Shown here: piece by piece, positions 4,307 to 61,367 of the stretch | How the letters are laid out: every line of letters starts with the position of its first letter | How positions within the stretch are numbered: position 1 is the first letter of the stretch | Origin: Ryuthela nishihirai | Taxonomy: Eukaryota > Arthropoda > Arachnida > Araneae > Heptathelidae | Assembly: GCA_038380435.1 (NCBI GenBank) | Contig: JAWZYU010000001.1 | Location: 18,394,001 to 18,458,000, forward strand | DNA: 64,000 bases | Direction of reading: 5' to 3' | The notes under the pieces: model-generated | What the model saw: the letters and a program-made list of their open reading frames with translations, nothing else | The model's database searches: none | Told to the model about the DNA's origin: nothing | Position numbers and translations under genes: made by a program

Positions 4307-5707
4307 ATGGCTTCAGCCTTTAGTGGTGGGGGAACGGGTCTTTGCCCCATGTCTGCGATTAGGAGGCTGTTTGATATTGTCGGCATTCCCTCTCTCAATA
4401 AATATAGTTTCTTTAAACATCCCACTAAACATTTTCTCTCCATAGGCAGTTGGAATGTGAGGACTCTGCACAGAGCTTTTTCTCTTGATGTCCTCACACA
4501 AGAATTCCATCATTATAATTTAGATATTCTCGGCTTGCAAGAGACCAGATGGACAGATAAAGGTCAGATTCTTAAAAATAATCTTAAATTTCTCTTTTCA
4601 GGGAGGGACGACAATAAGCATTACCAAGGCGTGGGTCTGCTTCTCAGCAGACACGCTAGTGATGCTCTTCTAGGATATGAGTGCATTAATGAAAGATTTC
4701 TTACAGCAAAATTTCAGACAAGCATTAAAGACCTGAATGTTATCTGCTGTTATGCCCCCACTGAGGATGCCGATGAGGATGAGAAGGATAGGTTTTATGA
4801 ACAACTTCAGGATATTTTGAATACTGTCAAGAAAGGAGATATTACCCTTGTTCTAGATGACTTCAATGCCAAAGTTGGTACTGACTCTGACCTTTGGGGA
4901 GGGGTGATAGGCCCTTTTGGTATTGGTAGCTGCAATGGCAATGGACAACATCTCCTACAGGTAAGTAAACTCAATGGTTTCAGAATAACTAACACATATT
5001 ACAAACACCACGACATACATAAATACACATGGGTTTCACCTGATGGGCTGCATAAGAATACGATTGATTACATATTAATTAACAGCAAATGGGCTAGTTC
5101 TGTTAGGAATACCAGGATATATAGGGGAACTGAAATTGGATCTGACCATTACCTTTTTAAAAGTGTCTTGCAACTTAAACTTAAAAAGTGTTGTGCTAAG
5201 GTTAAAAAATTTACCTTTTCTTCCGAAGCCCTGAAAGACCCAGTTATAGCTAAAGTTTACCATGATAGGTTAATTAGTCATTATGACAGTCATGGTTTGC
5301 TTACTACTGAAGTTGAGGAAGAATGGGGCCATTTTAAACAGGCTTTTTTGGAAACTAACAGTACTCTTTTAGGAAAAAAGGAGCAGAGGAGGCAGAATTA
5401 TTTATGTGATAAGGCACTTGAGCTTATTTCAGAAAGAAGGAACTGCAGGAATGTCCTTAATCAGTACCCTACTAGTCCTAATAGAAAGGATTACAGAGAG
5501 CTTACTAAACGTGTAAAGGATCAGTTAGCTACTGATAAGAATCTTTGGCTTGATGGCTTGGCTAACAAAGATGAGGAAGCAGTTAGACAGCACAACAGCA
5601 GAAAGCTGTACCAGATAGTTAATGTTTTGTGTGGTAGAAAACGGACAGGTATACAGGGATTGAAGGATAAACAAGGTTATAGAAGGGGAGGATTCTGTGA
5701 TGACTAG
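4307..5707 (+). CDS. LINE apurinic-like endonuclease region (ORF of RTE-like element)
   Basis: A 466-residue frame encoding the N-terminal endonuclease/exonuclease/phosphatase domain of the LINE, which would nick the target DNA during retrotransposition. From about residue 45 it shows the family motifs in order: SWNVRTLH, DILGLQETRW (catalytic Glu), a GVGLLLS strand, NVICCYAPTED, LVLDDFNAKVG (usual GDFN changed to DDFN), a YTW strand, TIDYILIN and GSDHYLF (catalytic Asp-His). Residues from about 270 form the charged linker to the reverse transcriptase. The frame ends near an A/T expansion that separates it from RT. The ATG at 4307 opens the frame; the true start may differ. It belongs to a mobile element, not to the host. 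Confidence 0.8.
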   Translation: MASAFSGGGTGLCPMSAIRRLFDIVGIPSLNKYSFFKHPTKHFLSIGSWNVRTLHRAFSLDVLTQEFHHYNLDILGLQETRWTDKGQILKNNLKFLFSGRDDNKHYQGVGLLLSRHASDALLGYECINERFLTAKFQTSIKDLNVICCYAPTEDADEDEKDRFYEQLQDILNTVKKGDITLVLDDFNAKVGTDSDLWGGVIGPFGIGSCNGNGQHLLQVSKLNGFRITNTYYKHHDIHKYTWVSPDGLHKNTIDYILINSKWASSVRNTRIYRGTEIGSDHYLFKSVLQLKLKKCCAKVKKFTFSSEALKDPVIAKVYHDRLISHYDSHGLLTTEVEEEWGHFKQAFLETNSTLLGKKEQRRQNYLCDKALELISERRNCRNVLNQYPTSPNRKDYRELTKRVKDQLATDKNLWLDGLANKDEEAVRQHNSRKLYQIVNVLCGRKRTGIQGLKDKQGYRRGGFCDD

Positions 5708-5965: not shown

Positions 5966-7422
5966 TAAATCGCCAGGGGTAGATGAAATTACTACAGAAA
6001 TGCTTAGAGCTGGGAATGTTTCAGTTACCACTTGGATGACTGAAATTTTGAATATCTTTTATGAAAAAGGCATGGTTCCTAAGGATTTTACCAGAGCTAT
6101 TATCCCTATTTTCAAAAAAGGTGATCACAGTTCTTATGATAACTATAGGGGTATCAGCCTACTCTCTGTTCCAGGTAAAGTTCTTTCCATGATTGTGCTT
6201 AATAGAATTAAGAAAATCTGGTTGACAATCAATTACGTGATGAGCAATGTGGATTCAGAAGTGGTAGGGGATGTGTGGATCAGATATTTTCACTTTGGCA
6301 GATTCTTGAGAAATGTTTAGAGTTTCAGAAACTTTTGGGTGCTAGCTTTGTGGATTTCAAAAAGGCTTTCGACTCTGTTTATCGTCATAATTTGTGGTTG
6401 ATTGTGAGATCATATGGTATACCTGAAAGTTAGTTAACATAATGAAAGCTCTCTATAATAACACTGAGTCGTGTGTGAGAGTTGGTAAGACTTGTAGTAA
6501 TTGGTTTAGCATTGCTTCTGGTGTTCGACAAGGGTGCATTTTGTCTCCTTTGCTCCTTAGTTTGGTTATTGATTAGGTTATGCGAAATTCACTGCAAAGG
6601 AAAGATTTTGGCCTTAAATGGTCTGGAGATACTAAATTTTTTTATTTAGATTATGCTGATGATTTAACCCATTTGGCAAATGATGTTGATGAGATGAACT
6701 CTTTCATTCGAGCTGTTGATGAGACTGGTAGTAGAGTAGGTTTGGTTATAAACAGAGAGAAAACTAAAGTGATGAAAATTGGTCAGGCAAGCTGTGATTC
6801 AGTTAATCTGAATGGTTGCACCCTTGAGCAGGTGTCACAGTTTAATTATCTTGGGAGCTACATAACAGATACTGGTGATGTGCGGCATGAGATTAACAGA
6901 CGAATAAGGATTGCTGACGGGACTTTTAAGAATCTATGGAGAGTGTGGAGAAATAGGTGTATACACCTAAAGACTAAAATTAGACTGTATAATAGTTTGG
7001 TTCTTTCTAGGGTTAGTTATGGCAGTGAAACTTGGACACTTTGTAAACAAGATAACAGGAAACTATATGCTTTTGATTCCAGATGCTTACGCAGTATCTT
7101 GGGCATTAGGTGGTTCAACTTTGTAACTAATGATGAGGTTAGGCAAAGGAGTTTGCAACCTCCTTTAAGCAGCATATTGTGCAGAGAGAGACTCCGTTGG
7201 TTTGGCCATGTTGCCCATATGAATAATTATAGATTGGCAAATAGGGTTATGAACAGTGTGCCTAAAGGCCTCAGAAAGAAGGGGAGACCTAGGATGCGGT
7301 GGGCAGACAATGTCAAACACGACCTTGTTAGAATTGGTGTGCAGTGGCCAGATGCAGTAGATGTAGCTCAGGATAGACTTGCTTGGAGAACTAAATTGCA
7401 CAGTCTGGTTGGACCTCCATAG
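5966..7422 (+). pseudogene. LINE reverse transcriptase and C-terminal domain, frame-disrupted
   Basis: RT motifs are readable across three frames: FKKGDHSSYDNYRGISLLSV (about 6110-6165), FRSGRGCVDQIF (shifted frame), FVDFKKAFDS with the motif A Asp, GVRQGCILSP, and YADD at about 6651-6662 (motif C). The last 280 residues (6580-7422) are uninterrupted and end in the LINE tail RLRWFGHVAHM...KGRPRMRWADNV. One frameshift and at least two stops lie between motifs, so no active enzyme can be made. Confidence 0.85.
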
Positions 7423-25938: not shown

Positions 25939-25963
25939 TAAGATCTCCTCTAATTGATGATAT

Positions 25964-26581
25964 TGTTACGACAGAAGAATCTGGCAACCGAAAGCAAAGT
26001 TTCAGCCAACGAATTGAACTTTGGGAGAATTTGGAGAAGAAGAGTGGAGCGTTAACGGTCGTTGTGTTGTAACGGTCGGAGAGTTCGAAAATGGACGGTG
26101 AGCTGTTCTGAGACAGTGCGCGTAAGTATCAAGAAGTAACTTGATGTGTTGTGTATACACGGAAGGATAAAAGTGGGATCTTTTATCGTTAAGTATCAAG
26201 AAGTAACTTGATGTGTTGTGTATACGCGGAAGTATAAAAGTGGGAACTTTTATGGCTAACTTCGAATGTCTACACGGACTGTCTTTTTGTTCGGCTAGTG
26301 TGTGAAAAGTTATTAGCAAAGGACGAGAATTGGTTTGCGAGTGAAGATCTTCGGGTGACCTGGTAAATCAAGTAAAAGGTAGTATTTAGTAAAATACACA
26401 GAGCTGATGTTGTGTGCTCACGCAGGAAGATTGATGACTTGTGCATGTTAATAGTTGATTTGTTAATAAGATACTTCATCCATATTTCCTTTGTAACAAT
26501 TTACCTTGTATTGAATTTGGTTTTGAAATATAGCTTTTAATACTCACGCTCAGCGGCTATCCATTTTTGTAATCCGCAACA
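25964..26581 (+). repeat. E1 5' LTR
   Basis: Starts TGTTACGACAG and ends AATCCGCAACA, with short inverted ends TGTTACG/CGCAACA. It contains a 67-bp tandem duplication (26123-26255) and a TATA box in the second unit. Confidence 0.95.
26123..26255 (+). promoter_or_regulatory. Duplicated U3 promoter unit with TATA box
   Basis: Two 67-bp units each start TAAGTATCAAGAAGTAACTT and end in a TAAAAGTGGGA-type motif. The second carries a good TATA box, TATAAAAG (26233-26240); the first has GATAAAAG. Transcription of the element likely starts about 25-30 bp downstream of the TATA box. The 3' LTR and both E2 LTRs have the same arrangement. Confidence 0.65.
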
Positions 26582-26583
26582 TT

Positions 26584-26602
26584 TGGTGTCAGGAGTGGGA
26601 TT
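26584..26602 (+). promoter_or_regulatory. E1 primer-binding site, tRNA-Leu type
   Basis: TGGTGTCAGGAGTGGGATT lies two bases after the LTR. It is complementary to the 3' end of animal tRNA-Leu (…CCCACTCCTGACA plus CCA). E2 differs by one base, with AGAAG for AGGAG. Confidence 0.85.
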
Positions 26603-26612
26603 AATTAATTGA

Positions 26613-29507
26613 ATGCCGTTAACTAGAAGTATGGATGAATTAGTAAAGTTGATAAATAGCTTCAAAGCCGATATGACTACGCTGATGACTGATATGAAAG
26701 CCGATATGACTACGCTGATGACTGATATGAAAGCCGATATGGCTAACAAAATAGGTGACCTGGCCGCACAAAATACTGAGATTAAAGGTGATATAGCTGC
26801 CCAAAGCGATAAAATAGGTGACTTGAAAACCGAAATGGCCGCACATAATACTGAGATGAGAGCTGAAGTGGCTTCTCGAGTTGGTAAGATTATTGATCAC
26901 TTCAAGGATCATAAAACCGAACTCAATAGACAATGCAATAGTTTAAATGTTGAATCTGTCAGTGAAAAAGATGATCTTGATAGTGTTAAGTTAGATTGTA
27001 AACATGGAAAAGAAAAAGAGAAAGGCAACGCATATAAAAATGTGGATCTGCTACTGGAAATCAAGAATTGTAGAGATAGCGCAGATGATGCCTTTGACCA
27101 CGCAACTACTGGTAATGCATGGCAGAGTGTCTATGTCGCTGGTGACATGTCTAGGAACTGTGAAGAACAATCACACAGATCAGAGAGCTGTGAGACTATA
27201 CAGTACGCTTTGCACTTCAAAATACCTAGGTATACAAGTCTGGCACGATCTGAAGAGAGATCCACACGAAAGGTATTCTATTCCTTGCCGTCAGCAAAAT
27301 GCCTCATGGACAATTATCGCAGAGTAACGAGTGGTAATGAGGGGGAACGAAACAGAGTTTACGTTTCGCAGAGTGGTCCGAGTAAAGAAGAGGCGTCCAT
27401 TCATCATGGATACAAAGTGCCATTCGACGTTACCGGGGAAGTCGGAGAGATTTTACCGAAGCATATAGCCACACTCGAATCGTTTATAGAAAGTGGGGAT
27501 TTAAGAAAGAAGAAATCCGAAGATTGGCTTAGAAGCGTAACAGGTGATGCTGGTAAAGGAGCTTCAGGCAGAGACAGTACTTCAAAGACTGACTTAGATA
27601 TTCCTTTTTCTATGAGTAATAAATTGTGCTCGGATAACAGTAACTTTCTGGATGAAACTAAGCCTCAGAGTTACGATCAGAGAGAAGTGAAGCCCTCAGA
27701 TAATCTCAACGTAGCCATGCTGAATTTCTTTTCTGAACAGTCAATGCGCAGATTTGGACATTATAACCATTTAGATTATAAGGATATAGAGAAGTTTTAT
27801 CACGACAACAAGAGCTCTAAAGTGGACAATATCATGTTACAAAACTCGTCGCTGATCTCCAGAATGAACAATTTGGCAATCATGACTGATATTTCCCTGG
27901 CTAATTACAATGAGAGCTCCAAGAAAGTGAATTCGGAAGAAACAGCAAATATGACCTCCTCGGGTCATGTGTTTTGCTGGAGACCTGAGTGGCGCCATCG
28001 GATGGTGGATAAACACAGCACAAGAGGTGTCAGCGACAAAGTGAGTCTTGTCTTGGCTCCTGCACTTGCTGCTTTAGGTCTCAAGGTCCCTATGATCTCC
28101 GGTCGTGCTCTCCAATTGACGGGAGATACTCTGGACAAATTGGAATCCATCCTTGGCTTCACAGTCGACTGCACTAAAGATAAAATCGAGCAGATGATGG
28201 AAGACGTCGAATGCTGCATCGTAGGACAGACAGAGGAGCTGGTGCCAACAGATAAGGAGATTTACCGCTGCAAGGATCTGATGGCTACCATAGATAGCGT
28301 TCCTCTAATGATATGCTCAATTGTGTCCAAAAAGCTGGCTGAAGGAGTGTGTGCTTTGGTTTATGATGTTGAATTCGGAAAAGGAGCTATTGATCTCATC
28401 AGTACAGAAGATGTTGCTGTTGATTTAGTTAAGAAAATGGTTGCAGCATCACAAGCTCGTGGAATGAAGAGTTTGAGTTGTTCAGCTGTTATCAGCAACA
28501 TGGATTCACCTCTTGAAAACTCTGTTGACAACTCTCTGGAAGTGATGGAAGCTGTTCAGTGTTTCCTTGGTAACGGATCCTTGGAACTGCAAGAGCTCGT
28601 CGAAGAGTTAGGAGGAGAACTTCTGCGTTTGGTGAACATTGTGGATAATAGGGTAGATGAAGCATCACGTGTCTGCAAGGTTCTGCATAACGGCAATGCT
28701 TTGAACAAGTTTCGTAACATGTTAATAGAACAAGGAGTATCTGAAGATGTTGCAAGCTGGCTATGTGAAGGTAAAACAGAAAAAATATTGCTAGCAGCCC
28801 GACACATCACTGATTTCACTTATACAGGAGAAACAGGTAAGGTTGTCGGATTAGAAGCTGCAGTCCTAGCAAGAGTATGGAAGGAGGAGATGGACCGAAG
28901 CGCTAAAAAGAATTATGGAGCTGATGTTATATTTGTGAAGCACCTTGGGGATCAAATGGAATCAGGTGAAATATGGCTGAAGGTTCATCACGACAGCTCT
29001 GAATTAAGTGAAAGTCAACTGACAAAATGGTCAGATTGCAGGATGAAAATTCTCCCTAGATTTTATGTCACTAATGACTTTCATTCCTTGTTACTGTTGA
29101 TAGAAGTAAAAATCCAAAGAAGAAAACTTTCGACAAAGAAGAAAACTTTTTACAGGTTTTGCACAAAAACTCTTAGTCGATTCTTCTCCCTGCAGAGACA
29201 TAAACGTGTTCACAAGGGCTATAGGCCTTACACGTATTATGTTTGTGGACGAGGCTTCAGTCAGAAAAGAAATCTACGTCATAATGAGATTCGCTTTCAT
29301 TTTGACACAGACGTGGTATATCGCATTCGTCGATGTCCAGCTGCAAAGTGCAAGGTGGTTCACGTGGATCGTTTGGCCCCGTTTCATCGAAGAACTGAAG
29401 AAGCTTTGGAATCCAGAATTGTTCGGGACGAACAAGACCTAGGAAGGGGGCAGTGTTACGACAGAAGAATCTGGCAACCGAAAGCAAAGTTTCAGCCAAC
29501 GAATTGA
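26613..29507 (+). CDS. E1 polyprotein: Gag-like coiled coil + thymidine phosphorylase + zinc fingers + Pol tail
   Basis: 964 residues, starting at the first ATG after the primer site (MPLTRSMDELV). Order: 1-110 heptad-rich coiled coil with repeats of MKADMTTLMTD; 110-440 hydrophilic, unrecognised; about 443-800 thymidine phosphorylase-like; 840-900 degenerate C2H2 fingers (FFSLQRHKRVHKGYRPYT, CGRGFSQKRNL); 905-945 the end of a Gypsy Pol protein (KVVHVDRLAPFHR, RDEQDLGRGQ). The frame then reads into the 3' LTR. Thymidine phosphorylase normally splits thymidine to thymine and deoxyribose-1-phosphate. Here the VDKHST loop is kept (467-470) but the next glycines are changed (STRGVSDK), the signature SGRxxxxTGGTLDKLE has GG changed to GD (494-511), and the phosphate-site Arg is Lys554. 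The family is usually 440-480 residues, so the first 60-80 are missing or unrecognisable. Activity is doubtful. Confidence 0.9.
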   Translation: MPLTRSMDELVKLINSFKADMTTLMTDMKADMTTLMTDMKADMANKIGDLAAQNTEIKGDIAAQSDKIGDLKTEMAAHNTEMRAEVASRVGKIIDHFKDHKTELNRQCNSLNVESVSEKDDLDSVKLDCKHGKEKEKGNAYKNVDLLLEIKNCRDSADDAFDHATTGNAWQSVYVAGDMSRNCEEQSHRSESCETIQYALHFKIPRYTSLARSEERSTRKVFYSLPSAKCLMDNYRRVTSGNEGERNRVYVSQSGPSKEEASIHHGYKVPFDVTGEVGEILPKHIATLESFIESGDLRKKKSEDWLRSVTGDAGKGASGRDSTSKTDLDIPFSMSNKLCSDNSNFLDETKPQSYDQREVKPSDNLNVAMLNFFSEQSMRRFGHYNHLDYKDIEKFYHDNKSSKVDNIMLQNSSLISRMNNLAIMTDISLANYNESSKKVNSEETANMTSSGHVFCWRPEWRHRMVDKHSTRGVSDKVSLVLAPALAALGLKVPMISGRALQLTGDTLDKLESILGFTVDCTKDKIEQMMEDVECCIVGQTEELVPTDKEIYRCKDLMATIDSVPLMICSIVSKKLAEGVCALVYDVEFGKGAIDLISTEDVAVDLVKKMVAASQARGMKSLSCSAVISNMDSPLENSVDNSLEVMEAVQCFLGNGSLELQELVEELGGELLRLVNIVDNRVDEASRVCKVLHNGNALNKFRNMLIEQGVSEDVASWLCEGKTEKILLAARHITDFTYTGETGKVVGLEAAVLARVWKEEMDRSAKKNYGADVIFVKHLGDQMESGEIWLKVHHDSSELSESQLTKWSDCRMKILPRFYVTNDFHSLLLLIEVKIQRRKLSTKKKTFYRFCTKTLSRFFSLQRHKRVHKGYRPYTYYVCGRGFSQKRNLRHNEIRFHFDTDVVYRIRRCPAAKCKVVHVDRLAPFHRRTEEALESRIVRDEQDLGRGQCYDRRIWQPKAKFQPTN
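29441..29453 (+). promoter_or_regulatory. E1 polypurine tract
   Basis: AGGAAGGGGGCAG directly precedes the 3' LTR, as expected for the plus-strand primer. It lies inside the open reading frame. E2 has the same tract at 60714-60726. Confidence 0.85.
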
Positions 29508-30071
29508 ACTTTGGGAGAATTTGGAGAAGAAGAGTGGAGCGTTAACGGTCGTTGTGTTGTAACGGTCGGAGAGTTCGAAAATGGACGGTGAGCTGTTCTG
29601 AGACAGTGCGCGTAAGTATCAAGAAGTAACTTGATGTGTTGTGTATACACGGAAGGATAAAAGTGGGATCTTTTATCGTTAAGTATCAAGAAGTAACTTG
29701 ATGTGTTGTGTATACGCGGAAGTATAAAAGTGGGAACTTTTATGGCTAACTTCGAATGTCTACACGGACTGTCTTTTTGTTCGGCTAGTGTGTGAAAAGT
29801 TATTAGCAAAGGACGAGAATTGGTTTGCGAGTGAAGATCTTCGGGTGACCTGGTAAATCAAGTAAAAGGTAGTATTTAGTAAAATACACAGAGCTGATGT
29901 TGTGTGCTCACGCAGGAAGATTGATGACTTGTGCATGTTAATAGTTGATTTGTTAATAAGATACTTCATCCATATTTCCTTTGTAACAATTTACCTTGTA
30001 TTGAATTTGGTTTTGAAATATAGCTTTTAATACTCACGCTCAGCGGCTATCCATTTTTGTAATCCGCAACA
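29454..30071 (+). repeat. E1 3' LTR
   Basis: 618 bp, no difference from the 5' LTR noticed by eye. The first 54 bases are coding in E1 (the frame stops at 29507). Confidence 0.95.
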
Positions 30072-30075
30072 ATAT

Positions 30076-30739: not shown

Positions 30740-31900
30740 TTTTTTTTTTTGATGATTTTATACTATATATTTATTTTTATTTTGAGTTAGTTTCAATCGA
30801 ATAAGTTGTCCAAAATGCGTCTTTTGATGTCCTATGGGGATCTTTTATTGGCATCTGGATCTTTTAGTGTCCCAAGGATCTTTTAAAAGTGAGGTAGAGG
30901 CCTTTGGAGAGGCAGAGAGGCTTTAGGGGAATCTCCCAGTGCTGTTGATATATAGGGCCAAGGCCCTATAGTGGCTTTTTATATTATTATGAGTAGGACC
31001 AAGAATTGTTTGGGCTGAGAAATAAGTGGTTCCCAGTGTGGTGAGTGTCTGGAAGAGGGTAATTCTATGTATTGTGTATTTGGTGCAGTGTAGAAGGTAG
31101 TGTGGAATGTCTTCTATCACATGGCATGTAGTGCAAAGAGCAGATGGTACCTTTTGTATCATGAAAAGGTCCTTGTTGAGATTTGTTGTGCCAGTGCGTA
31201 ATTGATGAATTGTTGTTTGGGTTCTTCTTGATAGGTAGTTGAGATGAAGTGTGTGTGGGATGGCAGCAATGGTGGCTCTGAATGTATTTTTAATTGTGGC
31301 CTGTTGGATCCAGTTTTGTGTCCATGTGGAGTGGAAGAATTTGTTGATTTCAATTAGGTGATGATTATATGTCTCAGGGGTGTGATAATTAGGTGTAGGG
31401 ATATTGTGTCCTTGTTTAGCAAGGTGGTCAGCAGTGTCATTATGGGTTATGTTACAATGAAAGGGTATCCAGTGGAATGTTAGTGTTTTGTGAGTGGCAA
31501 TTATATTGTGTGAAATTCTGTGAATATGGAAAAGAGAGTAATTTTGTGAAAGGTTGTATGTATGTTTGTTGATGCTGTGTAAGGCAGATTTTGAGTCAGT
31601 GATAATATGTATGCTGTGTGTATTTTGTGTGGAGGACCATTCCAAAGTCATGTATTGCAGCTAGCTCTGTAGCAGTACTGTTTTCTGCATGGTTCATTTT
31701 GATTATATGTGAGAAAATTGGTTGGGTAGAGTGGAAGGCAGCAGAGCCATTTGTTGTGTATGGGATGTGGGAGCCATCTGTAAATATAATGAGGTCTGTG
31801 GTAGAAATGTTTGTGATAATTGACTGTAATTGGTTAATTGAGTCACGAGTTTATGGACGCCATGTTTTGCCCTACAGTAAGACGAAAGCATGTTGAGTTA
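30740..31900 (-). pseudogene. Non-LTR retrotransposon remnant with RNase H domain
   Basis: A 242-residue minus-strand frame (30923-31651) contains IITDSKSALHSI, HWIPFHCNITHNDTADHLAK and, near the end, CTTCHVIEDIPHYLLHC. These are the later RNase H motifs and the Cys/His tail of I/Jockey-type LINEs. The start of RNase H (…PSTLPNQFSHIIKMNHAENS, TATELAAI) lies upstream in another frame near 31640-31760, so a frameshift broke the gene. The 3' UTR repeats GGATCTTTTA-type motifs, and a poly-T on the plus strand (30739-30750) may be the poly(A) tail. RT and endonuclease are lost. Confidence 0.75.
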
Positions 31901-34292: not shown

Positions 34293-34932
34293 CAGTACTG
34301 TGCGAATTAGTTGGGACAAGCAAAGGAACGCTAAGTCCCTTCCGCTGCAGAATCTAAACTGCTGCAAGTCTAAACTTGTTCGTAACCTTCTGCTGGAAGT
34401 CTAAACTTGCGCGTGCAGCTTCTGGGCCACCGACGCTTCATCCCATTGAAGGAATGATGGACAGCAAAAAGTACATAGGCGTTCTGGAGGCGAAAATGGT
34501 CCCAACACTGCAGAAGCTGTTTCCTAACGGCGATGGGGTATTTCAACAGGATCTGGCTCGATGCCACAATTCTAAGCTTGCTAAGAACTTCTTTACCCAG
34601 CAACATTTGAAGGTATTGGAATGGCCAGGAAATTCACCAGATCTAAACCCCATTGAAAATTTGTGGGCCATTATTAAAGCGCGCATATCTAAGATGGATT
34701 GCACGACGAAAACCAAAATGATACAAAGTGTCATGAAAGTGTGGTATCCCGACCCTGAAGTGAAGGAGATGTGTGGAAAGCTAGTGGCATCAATGGTTGA
34801 GAGGGTGAAAGAAGTAATTAAAGCTAAGGGGGGTCACATTCACTATTAACTACACTATTAAACAAATAAATATTTTAGTTGTGTCTTTGTTACTGCATTT
34901 TCCTATTGTCCCAACTAATTTGCACAGTACTG
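34293..34932 (+). mobile_element. Tc1-B: short Tc1/mariner element with transposase C-terminus
   Basis: A 640-bp element with terminal inverted repeats of about 28 bp (CAGTACTGTGCGAATTAGTT and its near complement) and clean TA duplications at 34291-34292 and 34933-34934. Internal deletion leaves only the C-terminal part of the transposase. The insertion restores a normal SINE-B sequence when removed. Confidence 0.9.
34376..34849 (+). pseudogene. Tc1-B transposase, N-terminally deleted
   Basis: Open for 157 codons. From about residue 20 it reads as the C-terminal half of a Tc1/mariner DDE transposase: GVFQQDLARCHNSKLAKNFF (second Asp) and LEWPGNSPDLNPIENLW (third acidic residue region), ending in KAKGGHIHY, a typical Tc1 C-terminus. 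The DNA-binding domain and the first catalytic Asp are deleted, so it cannot transpose itself, though the remaining frame is unbroken. Confidence 0.8.
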
Positions 34933-37734: not shown

Positions 37735-38565
37735 ATGGTATCGCTGTCTCAATTAGGAGCAGGAGGCTTTGGATGCGTTTACTTAGTTCGAGATTTAGAA
37801 CGGGGAATCGATCTGGCAGCAAAAGTAATTTCAGTGAAAACTAGCAGTGATGAGATGGTAAAAAACGAACTTAAAATCCTGCGAAGTGTAAAAGAGAATC
37901 CTCTTTGTGTCCAGTATGATAATTATGTGAAATACAAAATTTCTCCAGATGTGCAGAAGCACTTTCTCTTCTTTGAGCATTTCAAAAGCGTCACCTTAAG
38001 ACAATTTCCTGCTCTGTATCGTATCACTACAGATGTTATTCGTCTGATTCTGGGACAGATGGGAATGGCACTGAAGTACCTTCACGGTAAAAATATTATT
38101 CACAGAGACATCAAAGGCGCTAACGTCTTAATTAATGATCTATGCAAGATAAAAGTAATAGATTTTGGATTGTCTGCCATTGGCACTTCATTTAAAGGTT
38201 ATTGTGGCACACCATACTACGTGGCTCCTGAAGTGCAGATTCATTGTGTGGAAAAGAATGCAAAGCCATACTCATTTGCTGCCGATTACTATTCTTTAGG
38301 CATAACTGCGTATCAGTTAATATATGGAATTTCCCCCTGTAAATACCAATTGAAACTCCTCGGTCTTAAGGATAACGTCAGTGCCTGCAGGAAGCTTGCG
38401 TTTAGAGAAATAGCAGCAGGGCGCACTGACTTTCCACTCGATTTAGATGCAAGTAGACAACAAGATCTTGTAAGAAAGCTCCTGTTAAAAGATCCCGAGC
38501 AACGACTCGGAGATAAAACCTATTTATCGCATTCTTTCTTTGAAGGAAAAGATCTGAAAAAACTG
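37735..38565 (+). CDS. AGC-like protein serine/threonine kinase domain
   Basis: Numbered from the ATG at 37735, the catalytic motifs are complete: glycine loop GAGGFG (8-13), Lys30 in the AAKVI strand, Glu in KNELKIL (helix C), HRDIKGAN (123-130), DFG (143-145), the activation segment CGTPYYVAPE ending at Glu166, and Arg in DPEQRLGD. The CGTPxY sequence and the QRLGD box are typical of AGC kinases (PKA/PRKX-like). All residues needed for phosphotransfer are present. The exon is intronless over the catalytic core and ends at AAACTG with a strong donor GTGAGT at 38566, in phase 0. Without splicing the frame runs on to 38607. Host gene; exact orthologue not identified. Confidence 0.8.
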
Positions 38566-38571
38566 GTGAGT
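38566..38571 (+). promoter_or_regulatory. Splice donor of kinase gene
   Basis: CTG|GTGAGT fits the donor consensus and lies right after the last kinase-like residues (GKDLKKL). The intron-encoded extension SSLIMVLLLVIL looks unlike a kinase tail. Confidence 0.65.
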
Positions 38572-38930
38572 TCATTGATAATGGTTTTGCTTCTCGTGAT
38601 TCTTTAAGAGTTCTTTTCGCTATAGTACTGTTGTAATGCTGTTCATTTATTATTTATTGGCCAGAGTTGGCAACATTAGATATAATTCAATCTCTTCCTC
38701 TTTAAGATCGATGTCTTTTCAAACATCACGTGTTAAAAATTAAAACTTGTTTCAGTGTCCGTACAGATATCCGAAAGCAGCTAAACTTGTTTAAGTAAGA
38801 ATTGTAATTAATGTGAAAATGTTTTCCTTGTATGCGTATGAATATGCAATGAAAGGAAAATGGTAAAAGAGTATACATTATTAATTAGTATATATATTAT
38901 ATATAATGAAGAAGCAATTAAAAATTTATA

Positions 38931-57228: not shown

Positions 57229-57871
57229 TGTTACGACAGAAGGAATCTGGCAACCGAAAGCAAAAAGTTTCAGCCAACGAATAAGAACGTTGGGAGAATT
57301 TGGAGAAGAAGAGTGGAGCGTTAACGGTCGTTTTGTATTGTAACGGTCGTTGCATTGTAACGGTCGAGGAGTTCGAAAATGGCCGGTGGGCTGTTCTGAG
57401 ACAGTGCGCGTTAAGTATCAAGAAGTAACTTGATGTGTTGTGTATACGCGGAAGGATAAAAGTGGGATCTTTTATCGTTAAGTATCAAGAAGTAACTTGA
57501 TGTGTTGTGTATACGCGGAAGTATAAAAGTGGGAACTTTTATGGCTAACTTCGAATGTCTACACGGACTGTCTTTTTGTTCGGCTAGTGTGTGAAAAGTT
57601 ATTAGCACAGGACGAGAATTGGTTTACGAGTGAAGATCTTCGGGTGACCTGGTAAATCAAGTAAAAGGTAGTATTTAGTAAAATACACAGAGCTGATGTT
57701 GTGTGCTCTACGTGAAGATTGATGACTTGTGCATGTTAATAGTTGATTTGTTAATAAGTTACTTCATCCATATTTCCTTTGTAACAATTTACCTTGTATT
57801 GAATTTGGTTTTGAAATATAGCTTTTAATACTCACGCTCAGTGGCTATCCATTTTTTTGAAATCCGCAACA
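57229..57871 (+). repeat. E2 5' LTR
   Basis: TGTTACGACAG...AATCCGCAACA. It has the duplicated promoter unit with TATAAAAG and an additional AACGGTCGTT repeat absent from E1. It ends TTTTTTTGAAATCC where the 3' LTR has TTTTTGTAATCC. Confidence 0.95.
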
Positions 57872-57873
57872 TT

Positions 57874-57891
57874 TGGTGTCAGAAGTGGGAT
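57874..57891 (+). promoter_or_regulatory. E2 primer-binding site, tRNA-Leu type
   Basis: TGGTGTCAGAAGTGGGAT, two bases after the LTR. One base different from E1; this version pairs with a tRNA-Leu isoacceptor ending CTTCTGACA. Confidence 0.85.
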
Positions 57892-57901
57892 AATTTATTG
57901 A

Positions 57902-60715
57902 ATGCCGTTAACTAGAAGTATGGATGAATTGGTAAAGTTGTTGAATGACATTAAAAGTCAAAATAATGATATGAAAGCCGAAATAGCGACACAAAATAGT
58001 ACATTGGATGAAATGATAGCCGCAATGGCCGCACAAAATAATGAGTTGAGGACTGAGATAGTTTCTCAAAAAGATGACTTGAAAGCCGAAATGGCCGCAC
58101 AAAATAATGAGTTGAGAACGGAGATAGTTTCTCAAAAAGATGATTTGAAAGCCGAAATAGCCGCACAAAATACTGAGATGAGAGCTGAAGTGGCTTCTCG
58201 AGTTGGTAAGATTATTGATCACTTCAAGGATCATAAAACCGAACTCAATAGACAATGCAATAGTTTAAATGTTGAATTTGTCAGTGAAAAAGATGATCTT
58301 GATAGTGTTAAGTTAGATTGTAAACATGGAAAAGAAAAAGAGAAAGGCAACGCATATAAAAATGTGGATCTGCTACTGGAAATCAAGAATTGTAGAGATA
58401 GCGCAGATGATGCCTTTGACCACGCAACTACTGGTAATGCATGGCAGAGTGTCTATGTCGCTGGTGACATGTCTAGGAACTGTGAAGAACAATCACACAG
58501 ATCAGAGAGCTGTGAGACTATACAGTACGCTTTGCACTTCAAAATACCTAGGTATACAAGTCTGGCACGATCTGAAGAGAGATCCACACGAAAGGTATTC
58601 TATTCCTCGCTCTCAGCAAAATGCGTCATGGACAATTATCGCAAAGGCAGAGTAACGAGTGGTAATGAAGGGGAACGAAACAGAGTTTACGTTTCGCAGA
58701 GTGGTCCGAGTAAAGAAGAGGCGTCCATTCATCATAGATACAAAGTGCCCTTCGTCATTACCGGGGAAGTCGGAGGGATTTTTCCGAAGCATATAGCCAC
58801 ACTTGAATCGTTTATAGAAAGTGGGGATTTAAGGAAGAGGAATTCCGAAGAATGGCTTAGAAGCATAACAGGTGATGCTAGTAAAAGAGCTTCAGGCAGA
58901 GACGGTACTTCAAAGACTAACTTTCTGGATGAAACTAAGCCTCAGAGTTACGATCAGAGAGAAGTGAATCCCTCAGATAATTTCAACGTAGCCACGCTGA
59001 ATTTCTTTTCTGAACAGTCAATGTGCAGATTTGGACATTATAACCATTTAGATTATAAGGATATAGAAAAGTTTTATCATGACTACAAGAGCTCTAAAGT
59101 GGACAATATCATGTTACAAAACTCGTCGCTGATCTCCAGAATGAACAATTTGGCAATCATGACTGATGTTTCCCTGGCTAATTACAATGAGAGCTCCAAG
59201 AAAGTGAATTCCGAAGAAACAGCAACTATGACCTCCTCTGGTCATGTGTTTTGCTGGAGACCCGAGTGGCGCCATCGGATGGTAGATAAATACGGTACAG
59301 GAGGTGTCGGCGACAAAGTGAGTCTTGTCTTGGCTCCTGCACTTGCTGCTTTAGGTCTCAAGGTCCCTATGATCTCCGGTCGTGCTCTCCAATTGACGGG
59401 AGATACTCTGTACAAATTGGAATCCATCCCTGGCTTCACAGTCGACTGCACTAAAGATAAAATCGAGCAGATGATGGAAGACGTCGGATGCTGCATCGTA
59501 GGACAGACAGAGGAGCTGGTGCCAACAGATAAGGAGATTTACCGCTGCAAGGATCTGATGGCTACCATAGATAGCGTTCCTCTAATTATATGCTCAATTG
59601 TGTCCAAAAAGCTGGCTGAAGGAGTGTGCGCTTTGGTTTATGATGTTGAATTCGGAAAAGGAGCTATTGATCTCGTCAGTACAGAAGATGTTGCTGTTGA
59701 TTTAGTTAAGAAAGTGGTTGCAGCATCACAAGCTCGTGGAATGAAGAGTTTGAGTTGTTCAGCTGTTATCAGCAACATGGATTCACCTCTTGAAAACTCT
59801 GTTGACAACTCTCTGGAAGTGATGGAAGCTGTTCAGTGTTTCCTTGGTAACGGATCCTTGGAACTGCAAGAGCTCGTCGAAGAGTTAGGAGGAGAACTTC
59901 TGCGTTTGGTGAACATTGTGGATAATAGGGTAGATGAAGCATCACGTGTCCGCAAGGTTCTGCATAACGGCAATGCTTTGAACAAGTTTCGTAACATGTT
60001 AATAGAACAAGGAGTATCTGAAGATGTTGCAAGCTGGCTATGTGAAGATAAAACAGAAAAAATATTGCTAGCAGCCCGACACATCACTGATTTCACTTAT
60101 ACAGGAGAAACAGGTAAGGTTGTCGGATTAGAAGCTGCAGTTCTAGCAAGAGTATGGAAGGTGGAGATGGACCGAAGCGCTAAAAAGAATTATGGAGCTG
60201 ATATTATATTTGTGAAGCACCTTGGGGATCAAATTGAATCAGGTGAAATATGGCTGAAGGTTCATCACGACAGTTCTGAATTAAGTGAAAGTCAACTGAC
60301 AAAAGGGTCAGATTGCAGGATGAAAATTCTCCCTAGATTTTATGTCACTAATGACTTTCATTCCTTGTTACTGTTGATAGAAGTAAAAATCCAAAGAAGA
60401 AAACTTTCGACAAAGAAGAAAACTTTTTACAGGTTTTGCACGAAAACTCTTAGTCGATTCTTCTCCCTGCAGAGACATAAACGTGTTCACAAGGGCTATA
60501 GGCCTTTTACAATGTTTGTGGACGAGGCTTCAGTCAGAAAAGAAATCTACGTCATAATGAGATTCGCTTTCATTTTGACACAGACGTGGTATATCGCATT
60601 CGTCGATGTCCAGCTACAAAGTGCAAGGTGGTTCACGTGGATCGTTTGGCCCCGTTTCATCGAAGAACTGAAGAAACTTTGGAATCCAGAATTGTTCGGG
60701 ACGAACAAGACCTAG
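57902..60715 (+). CDS. E2 polyprotein with thymidine phosphorylase-like region
   Basis: 937 residues, same start as E1 (MPLTRSMDELVKL). The coiled coil (10-95) is very different from E1's, with repeats of AQNNELRTEIVSQKDDLKAE; from about residue 95 on the two are nearly identical. It lacks 17 residues found in E1 near position 325 (DLDIPFSMSNKLCSDNS) and has KG near 250. In the phosphorylase part, the active-site loop reads VDKYGTGGVGDK (His to Tyr, Ser to Gly, but both glycines kept), with the same TGDT signature and Lys for Arg as E1. A 4-base deletion near 60505 shifts the frame, so the last 70 residues are unrelated to E1. The zinc-finger and Pol-tail sequence continues in another frame (60586-60822). 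Confidence 0.88.
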   Translation: MPLTRSMDELVKLLNDIKSQNNDMKAEIATQNSTLDEMIAAMAAQNNELRTEIVSQKDDLKAEMAAQNNELRTEIVSQKDDLKAEIAAQNTEMRAEVASRVGKIIDHFKDHKTELNRQCNSLNVEFVSEKDDLDSVKLDCKHGKEKEKGNAYKNVDLLLEIKNCRDSADDAFDHATTGNAWQSVYVAGDMSRNCEEQSHRSESCETIQYALHFKIPRYTSLARSEERSTRKVFYSSLSAKCVMDNYRKGRVTSGNEGERNRVYVSQSGPSKEEASIHHRYKVPFVITGEVGGIFPKHIATLESFIESGDLRKRNSEEWLRSITGDASKRASGRDGTSKTNFLDETKPQSYDQREVNPSDNFNVATLNFFSEQSMCRFGHYNHLDYKDIEKFYHDYKSSKVDNIMLQNSSLISRMNNLAIMTDVSLANYNESSKKVNSEETATMTSSGHVFCWRPEWRHRMVDKYGTGGVGDKVSLVLAPALAALGLKVPMISGRALQLTGDTLYKLESIPGFTVDCTKDKIEQMMEDVGCCIVGQTEELVPTDKEIYRCKDLMATIDSVPLIICSIVSKKLAEGVCALVYDVEFGKGAIDLVSTEDVAVDLVKKVVAASQARGMKSLSCSAVISNMDSPLENSVDNSLEVMEAVQCFLGNGSLELQELVEELGGELLRLVNIVDNRVDEASRVRKVLHNGNALNKFRNMLIEQGVSEDVASWLCEDKTEKILLAARHITDFTYTGETGKVVGLEAAVLARVWKVEMDRSAKKNYGADIIFVKHLGDQIESGEIWLKVHHDSSELSESQLTKGSDCRMKILPRFYVTNDFHSLLLLIEVKIQRRKLSTKKKTFYRFCTKTLSRFFSLQRHKRVHKGYRPFTMFVDEASVRKEIYVIMRFAFILTQTWYIAFVDVQLQSARWFTWIVWPRFIEELKKLWNPELFGTNKT

Positions 60716-60726
60716 GAAGGGGGCAG
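60714..60726 (+). promoter_or_regulatory. E2 polypurine tract
   Basis: AGGAAGGGGGCAG, identical to E1, immediately before the 3' LTR. Confidence 0.85.
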
Positions 60727-61367
60727 TGTTACGACAGAAGGAATCTGGCAACCGAAAGCAAAAAGTTTCAGCCAACGAATAAGAACGTTGGGAGAATTTG
60801 GAGAAGAAGAGTGGAGCGTTAACGGTCGTTTTGTATTGTAACGGTCGTTGCATTGTAACGGTCGAGGAGTTCGAAAATGGCCGGTGGGCTGTTCTGAGAC
60901 AGTGCGCGTTAAGTATCAAGAAGTAACTTGATGTGTTGTGTATACGCGGAAGGATAAAAGTGGGATCTTTTATCGTTAAGTATCAAGAAGTAACTTGATG
61001 TGTTGTGTATACGCGGAAGTATAAAAGTGGGAACTTTTATGGCTAACTTCGAATGTCTACACGGACTGTCTTTTTGTTCGGCTAGTGTGTGAAAAGTTAT
61101 TAGCACAGGACGAGAATTGGTTTACGAGTGAAGATCTTCGGGTGACCTGGTAAATCAAGTAAAAGGTAGTATTTAGTAAAATACACAGAGCTGATGTTGT
61201 GTGCTCTACGTGAAGATTGATGACTTGTGCATGTTAATAGTTGATTTGTTAATAAGTTACTTCATCCATATTTCCTTTGTAACAATTTACCTTGTATTGA
61301 ATTTGGTTTTGAAATATAGCTTTTAATACTCACGCTCAGTGGCTATCCATTTTTGTAATCCGCAACA
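60727..61367 (+). repeat. E2 3' LTR
   Basis: 641 bp, two bases shorter than the 5' LTR. Its 3' end (TTTTTGTAATCCGCAACA) matches E1's LTRs, so the 5' LTR carries the derived change. Confidence 0.95.

Follow-up and report, generated by a model that had tools for sequence, protein, structure and literature searches.

The cargo element and its thymidine phosphorylase segment

The window analysed here, a stretch of 64,000 nucleotides from Ryuthela nishihirai (contig JAWZYU010000001.1, positions 18,394,001 to 18,458,000), contains at 25964-30071 a long terminal repeat (LTR) retrotransposon whose open reading frame (ORF) includes a segment derived from thymidine phosphorylase (TYMP). All features that define the class are present, on the forward strand. 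The 5' LTR (25964-26581, 618 bp, TGTT...AACA) and the 3' LTR (29454-30071, 618 bp) show zero differences, and a comparison of the flanks revealed the target-site duplication (TSD) ATAT at 25960-25963 and 30072-30075. The primer binding site TGGTGTCAGGAGTGGGAT (26584-26601), which we take to resemble the 3' end of tRNA-Leu, and the polypurine tract (29441-29453) were read directly from the letters. A chimeric ORF of 964 codons (26613-29507) occupies almost the whole 2,872-bp interior and has its stop within the 3' LTR. A sequence-only reading of this DNA had described LTRs with a primer site and a purine tract around the 964-codon frame, which these positions bear out, and had seen no reverse transcriptase (RT), protease or integrase core. 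A Pfam scan of the ORF agrees: protease, RT and integrase core were not found, and a p58 C-terminal tail is what remains of the integrase. This element, in the following the cargo element, has no Gypsy-type RT and integrase of its own. TRIM elements are very short and without coding capacity, a definition that does not cover an element with a 964-codon ORF.

The frame begins with a gag N-terminal coiled-coil segment (26613-27015) that is common to an autonomous partner element up to about codon 134. It is followed by about 300 in-frame residues for which no homologue was found (27016-27920), the TYMP-derived segment (residues 442-802, 27936-29018), a degenerate C2H2 zinc-finger fragment (residues ~841-893, 29133-29291) and the end of pol, where the integrase p58 C-terminal tail keeps the native frame (29310-29453; Pfam match at residues 900-923). 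The C2H2-like pieces at residues 859-884 scored below the Pfam cut-off. Residues ~135-436 had no homologue in protein and PDB searches: with residues 116-438 as query, a search of 5.8 billion proteins yielded 779 candidates and none at E 10, the PDB gave no match at E 1, and the 481 residues read from the partner showed no similarity. The search with the whole ORF had three matches, two TYMPs and one zinc-finger protein (Parasteatoda); there were no chimeric relatives among the 7,995 candidates scored within length limits, and none of six pattern stretches in the viral contigs searched for the chimera was confirmed. The TYMP cargo proposed earlier is confirmed, but TYMP is not the sole foreign-looking piece, as the zinc-finger fragment and the ~300-residue piece accompany it. 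Because of the parts shared with the partner, the cargo element can be read as partner LTR, ~135 gag codons, ~300 residues, TYMP, zinc-finger fragment and integrase tail in one frame.

The earlier assignment of about 360 residues to the thymidine phosphorylase family holds for residues 442-802 with matches of 1e-74 to 1e-80, and the check proposed with it, a comparison of residues 440-800 to pyrimidine nucleoside phosphorylases, is answered by the same significant matches. TIGR02644 (NCBIfam) matched at 3.4e-80 with 269.9 bits, not reaching the strict cut-off of 409 bits for this model, PF00591 (Pfam) at 5.3e-30, above its cut-off, and human TYMP (2j0f) at 2.6e-74 in the PDB search. The five closest TYMPs, all of spider type and two of them named (Stegodyphus, Parasteatoda), have 45-48 % identity to the cargo. 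In a tree of 16 rows the cargo joins these five (support 100/98); its branch measures 1.21 changes per column, those of the spider-type TYMPs 0.29-0.40. The predicted model of the segment reached a pLDDT of 84, with human TYMP as best PDB match (TM 0.87), based on an alignment with 26 TYMPs that helped the model. It presents the fold of the α/β and C-terminal domains of thymidine phosphorylase. The N-terminal alpha domain (PF02885) had no Pfam match in the cargo ORF and is not securely recognisable upstream, where residues 387-441 are weakly similar to this region.

Copies of the family and an autonomous partner

A 38-bp pattern over the zinc-finger/integrase junction, with at most three mismatches allowed, was present at 1,959 places (970 + 989) in the 3.11-Gb assembly; the reversed control pattern was present at 0. 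The earlier description of one LTR retrotransposon is right in kind but not in number, since these junctions indicate a family of likely about 2,000 copies. Fully read were 48 copies: 47 scored places from 9,687 first-look candidates, with the window copy included, and a second copy in the window (57229-61367, forward strand, 92.5 % identical; ORF 57902-60715). Of the scored places, 46 were read in 45 loci, and the remaining one is the window copy. LTR pairs around the frame, as described earlier for the window copy, were resolved in 47 of the 48 copies of this assembly (the exception is L031). The pairs differ by 0-3 substitutions each, 43 in total, with none in 20 pairs and with some length differences, and the 4-bp TSDs match in all 47 resolved copies (ATAT in 36). 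The insertions of the cargo family are recent. Over residues 116-889 the median difference between copies is 2.1 %. A single frame holds the TYMP, zinc-finger and integrase-tail pieces in 47 of 48 copies, the exception being the second window copy with a frameshift near window-copy residue ~873; in copy C540 a stop codon lies close to the frame's end.

Cargo matches on C1 are spaced regularly at 3.4-3.5 kb (30088109, 30091536 and 30094963; 39962318 and 39965823) and have equal or similar frames, as expected of tandem elements with common LTRs. Ten matches among those listed by a 48-residue block have frames of 542-550 codons, perhaps an amplified broken sublineage.

The same genome contains an autonomous Ty3/Gypsy element with a Ty3-like RT and with the gag start and integrase tail common to the cargo. 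Its frames were found with a 56-residue integrase-tail query; among the 150 matches listed, 61 of the 149 tallied lie in frames of at least 1,600 codons, many of them about 1,650-1,714 codons. One partner copy was examined as two pieces (L057 and L058), with 399 bases between them unread. The LTR of L057 is 98.5 % identical to the window LTR over 527 bp, and its ORF begins MPLSRSMDELVK. Nucleotide similarity to the cargo stops near window position 27015 (codon 134), and past this codon follow a stretch whose weak similarity to the PNMA capsid family (E 0.008) does not reach the cut-off and a CCHC knuckle that exceeds its own. L058 is an RT in step with the L057 frame, its nearest PDB match being a Ty3-type RT (1.3e-29). 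A single partner frame appears to span from the start of gag to the end of pol. A pattern in the partner gag, outside the cargo element, was present at 1,098 places (557 + 541; reversed control 0). The LTR, gag start and integrase tail in common with a Ty3-type autonomous element identify the cargo element as a Gypsy derivative, as had been suggested earlier; without replication genes, recently inserted and with a partner present, it is non-autonomous.

In one cargo copy, L056, TYMP is cut near residue 684 and joined to about 83 integrase residues (SH3_Tf2-1 and Integrase_p58_C), which sit immediately upstream of the shared tail. We infer that this join is most easily explained if cargo and partner RNAs had shared a particle. 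A place on C28 obtained with an integrase pattern was first taken as partner and proved on reading to be the cargo-partner recombinant. On C1 (minus strand), a long integrase tail at 129191582 and a TYMP-side match at 129192602 are separated by about 1 kb and each lie in a frame of 853 codons; this may be another recombinant like L056.

Enzyme decay and the open frame

The window copy kept 63 of 79 positions that are invariant in 15 TYMPs, and the invariant residues retained by it include the Ser and Lys of the SIVSKK helix. KHS, Ser, Lys and an Arg matching human TYMP R202 (numbering of the 2j0f chain) are catalytic residues of TYMP, and the cargo does not present the complete set. The Arg is replaced by Lys in 48 of 48 copies, as is the Lys of DVKFG by Glu, while the His of KHS remains in 17 copies and is Asn in 26 and Tyr in 5. 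At invariant sites, 14 of the 23 replacement states found in at least 5 copies can be explained by a single G:C to A:T transition. An active enzyme was rejected on the basis of the replacements at catalytic and invariant sites. Because of the Lys at the catalytic Arg in all 48 copies and the decaying KHS, the cargo TYMP is predicted to be very likely dead as an enzyme.

The ratio of nonsynonymous to synonymous polymorphism (pN/pS) was 0.73 in TYMP, 0.60 in the middle piece, 0.47 in residues 804-895, 0.78 in the coil and 0.93 in the integrase tail. Singleton variants in TYMP had a nonsynonymous to synonymous ratio (N/S) of 2.83 versus 2.73 expected from singleton mutations. Strong purifying selection on the TYMP protein is not supported by these tests, and missense change in the cargo appears to be near neutral. 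The highest divergence of any segment is that of the gag coiled coil (residues 1-115 in the 48 copies; pS 0.117), whose number of repeats differs between copies. For stop codons another picture was obtained. In residues 116-889 about 15.6 stops were expected of 319 variants, and one was scored against the majority codon (Poisson p 2.7e-6, with variants treated as independent); the coil, in which four stops were scored, was excluded from this sum since its repeats align poorly. None of the 48 ORFs (937-1,035 codons) was ended by a stop within residues 116-889. Frames of at least 900 codons were found in 106 of the 149 matches listed for a ~70-residue stretch and in 87 of the 150 listed for a 48-residue stretch; these matches, taken as cargo copies, had been chosen by short TYMP-side stretches and not by their frame. 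With stops depleted, long frames in most sampled copies and missense change near neutral, the frame is apparently kept while the protein drifts. What is kept seems to be one long open frame that extends from the start of gag as far as the 3' LTR. As the partner frame appears to run to the end of pol, a cargo frame without stops up to the LTR would preserve the translation pattern of the RNA.

Proposed capture and mobilisation, and alternative explanations

A cellular gene sequence lies between LTRs in an intronless frame, as in Bs1-like transduction, and the element is classed as a transducing, putatively helper-dependent Gypsy derivative. Because the frame is intronless and a template-switching route is known (PMC5408686), the TYMP segment was likely captured from a host mRNA. 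The earlier proposal that a Gypsy-type element transduced a host mRNA stood in its Gypsy part, through the partner; as no host TYMP gene was identified, we infer the mRNA part. Of the searches for such a gene in the genome, the PF02885 profile retrieved only a bacterial TrpD-like stretch on C16 and no host TYMP. The motif HTGGTLDKLE had 0 matches; IGNSLEV had one, within the top match of the C-block query, a 958-codon frame. An N-terminal query (149 matches listed, E 0.12 or worse) and the 48-residue C-block (150 matches listed, 48-50 % identity) returned what look like cargo copies. The C16 stretch (L054, 11096433-11099534), in a contig of 75 Mb, has bacterial-looking overlapping frames including the TrpD-like one, a probable contamination or an insertion.

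We consider it likely that the cargo element belongs to a non-autonomous Ty3/Gypsy-type family in which TYMP and a zinc-finger fragment have replaced most of gag and pol, and which would be moved in trans by the partner. Template switching onto host mRNAs would have given rise to the TYMP-bearing segment. Particles of the partner would package the cargo RNA via the shared leader and gag start, its copying would be primed by the same tRNA, and insertion would take place at ATAT-like sites. The open frame may keep the genomic RNA translatable to its end and thereby allow an escape from nonsense-mediated decay, the reason we prefer; a second possibility is that a fusion with the Gag coil still enters the particles of the partner. 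Several observations weigh against this proposal. Mobilisation by the partner is a prediction and movement itself was not observed, L056 giving a hint at co-packaging. The host donor gene was not identified by profile, N-terminal, motif and 48-residue-block searches of the genome, which would miss genes split into short exons; the Arg motif matched once, at C23:42967975 (3 of its 27 bases differ from the window copy), a place that could be a host gene and could not be read. All but one of the 48 fully read copies are best-scoring ones, a bias toward intact frames, and frames below 900 codons were found in 43 of the 149 and 63 of the 150 matches listed. In the middle, TYMP and post-TYMP pieces taken together, N/S was lower in shared than in singleton variants, which was not significant (p 0.09 for variants in at least 5 copies, 0.17 for all shared variants).

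The young insertions, the TYMP singleton ratio close to expectation and the shorter frames among the 149 listed matches would also suit a pure passenger, a cargo without role whose open frames reflect very recent amplification from few intact masters. This is quite possible, but at a median divergence of 2.1 % in residues 116-889 none of 48 ORFs was stop-ended there, with about 15 stop variants expected, and in 47 of 48 copies a single frame runs through the three segments and the two ends; the best-scoring sample weakens these frame arguments. Use of the Gag-coil-TYMP fusion as a translated pseudoenzyme, e.g., as a particle subunit that parasitises partner capsids, would explain the open frame despite the decay of the active site and also the ~2,000 cargo junctions versus roughly 1,100 partner gag matches, a rough comparison between counts from different patterns. 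We regard such a use as unlikely; if true, a Gypsy lineage would have domesticated a host enzyme in reverse. A working TYMP serving element or host, e.g., in thymidine pools during reverse transcription, is very improbable: the fold is predicted intact, and the window copy retains the 63 invariant positions as well as the SIVSKK Ser and Lys, but Arg and the DVKFG Lys are replaced in 48 of 48 copies and the KHS His in 31, missense change appears near neutral and the N-terminal alpha domain is not securely recognisable. Capture in another species, with arrival by horizontal transfer in a host without the donor, would agree with the long cargo branch and with the genome searches, in which no host TYMP exon was identified (the C23:42967975 match being unread). 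It is doubtful in view of the grouping of the cargo with five spider-type TYMPs, the abundance of the partner in the same genome and donor searches that miss genes split into short exons. For a host gene mis-joined to an LTR by assembly or annotation no supporting point was found, and 1,959 junction places and matching TSDs in 47 of 47 LTR pairs render it hardly conceivable.

The presumably helper-dependent cargo family shares properties with known systems. Acutely transforming, replication-defective retroviruses carry host sequence fused behind the gag start and depend on a helper, as in the cargo element; these Gag fusions are retroviral and infectious, whereas the cargo is a germline LTR element without oncogene. 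The non-autonomous LTR groups LARD, TRIM and BARE-2 keep LTR, primer binding site and polypurine tract and depend on partner proteins; in contrast, the cargo element has an extended ORF in which a host-type enzyme can be recognised. TRIM and BARE-2 are mentioned as non-autonomous LTR groups in PMC13317346. There, maize Bs1 is described as an LTR element whose hybrid frame combines parts of three host genes, and the likeness of several host-gene pieces fused into one frame extends to the Bs1 passages of PMC5408686. Bs1 has a plant host and other cargo, whereas here the junction is present in about 2,000 copies, a partner of gypsy type was identified and the cargo is a metabolic enzyme predicted to be dead. 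Compared with Bs1, the high copy number, the recent insertion, the metabolic-enzyme cargo, the identified helper and the apparently animal host are new. Animal gene retrocopies with LTR signatures are known (PMC5408686), and metazoan LTR-mediated retroposition (Tan et al. 2016, as cited in PMC5408686) has in common the template switching between LTR-element RNA and cellular mRNA. That process is described there as yielding gene retrocopies, whereas the chimera here retained its two LTRs and multiplied into a high-copy family. In the open-licence literature, a search for TYMP together with LTR retrotransposons listed a single unrelated fungal genome paper, and searches on host-gene capture, template switching, RNA decay and helper viruses listed no such element. 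Host-gene capture by LTR elements has been described mainly in plants, and the animal examples given in PMC13317346 and PMC5408686 are gene retrocopies. The family adds a captured enzyme segment in about 2,000 recently inserted copies, alongside its presumed helper in one genome and with a recombinant of cargo and helper documented in sequence. It opens the questions of why a non-autonomous element should maintain a useless open frame and how the helper and the cargo RNAs compete.

Elsewhere in the window, an RNase H-like ORF adjoins the element downstream (30923-31651, minus strand; PF00075 1e-4, slightly below cut-off). An endonuclease/exonuclease/phosphatase-domain ORF followed by an RT-domain ORF (4307-5707 and 6580-7422, forward strand) is probably a non-LTR retrotransposon, and a DDE_3 transposase fragment, mariner/Tc-like, lies at 34376-34849 (forward strand). 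At 37735-38607 (forward strand) an intronless ORF encodes a protein kinase of 290 residues (PF00069, 2e-44) with PDB matches to STE20-type and CHK2 kinases; it may represent a retrogene or a kinase of viral type.

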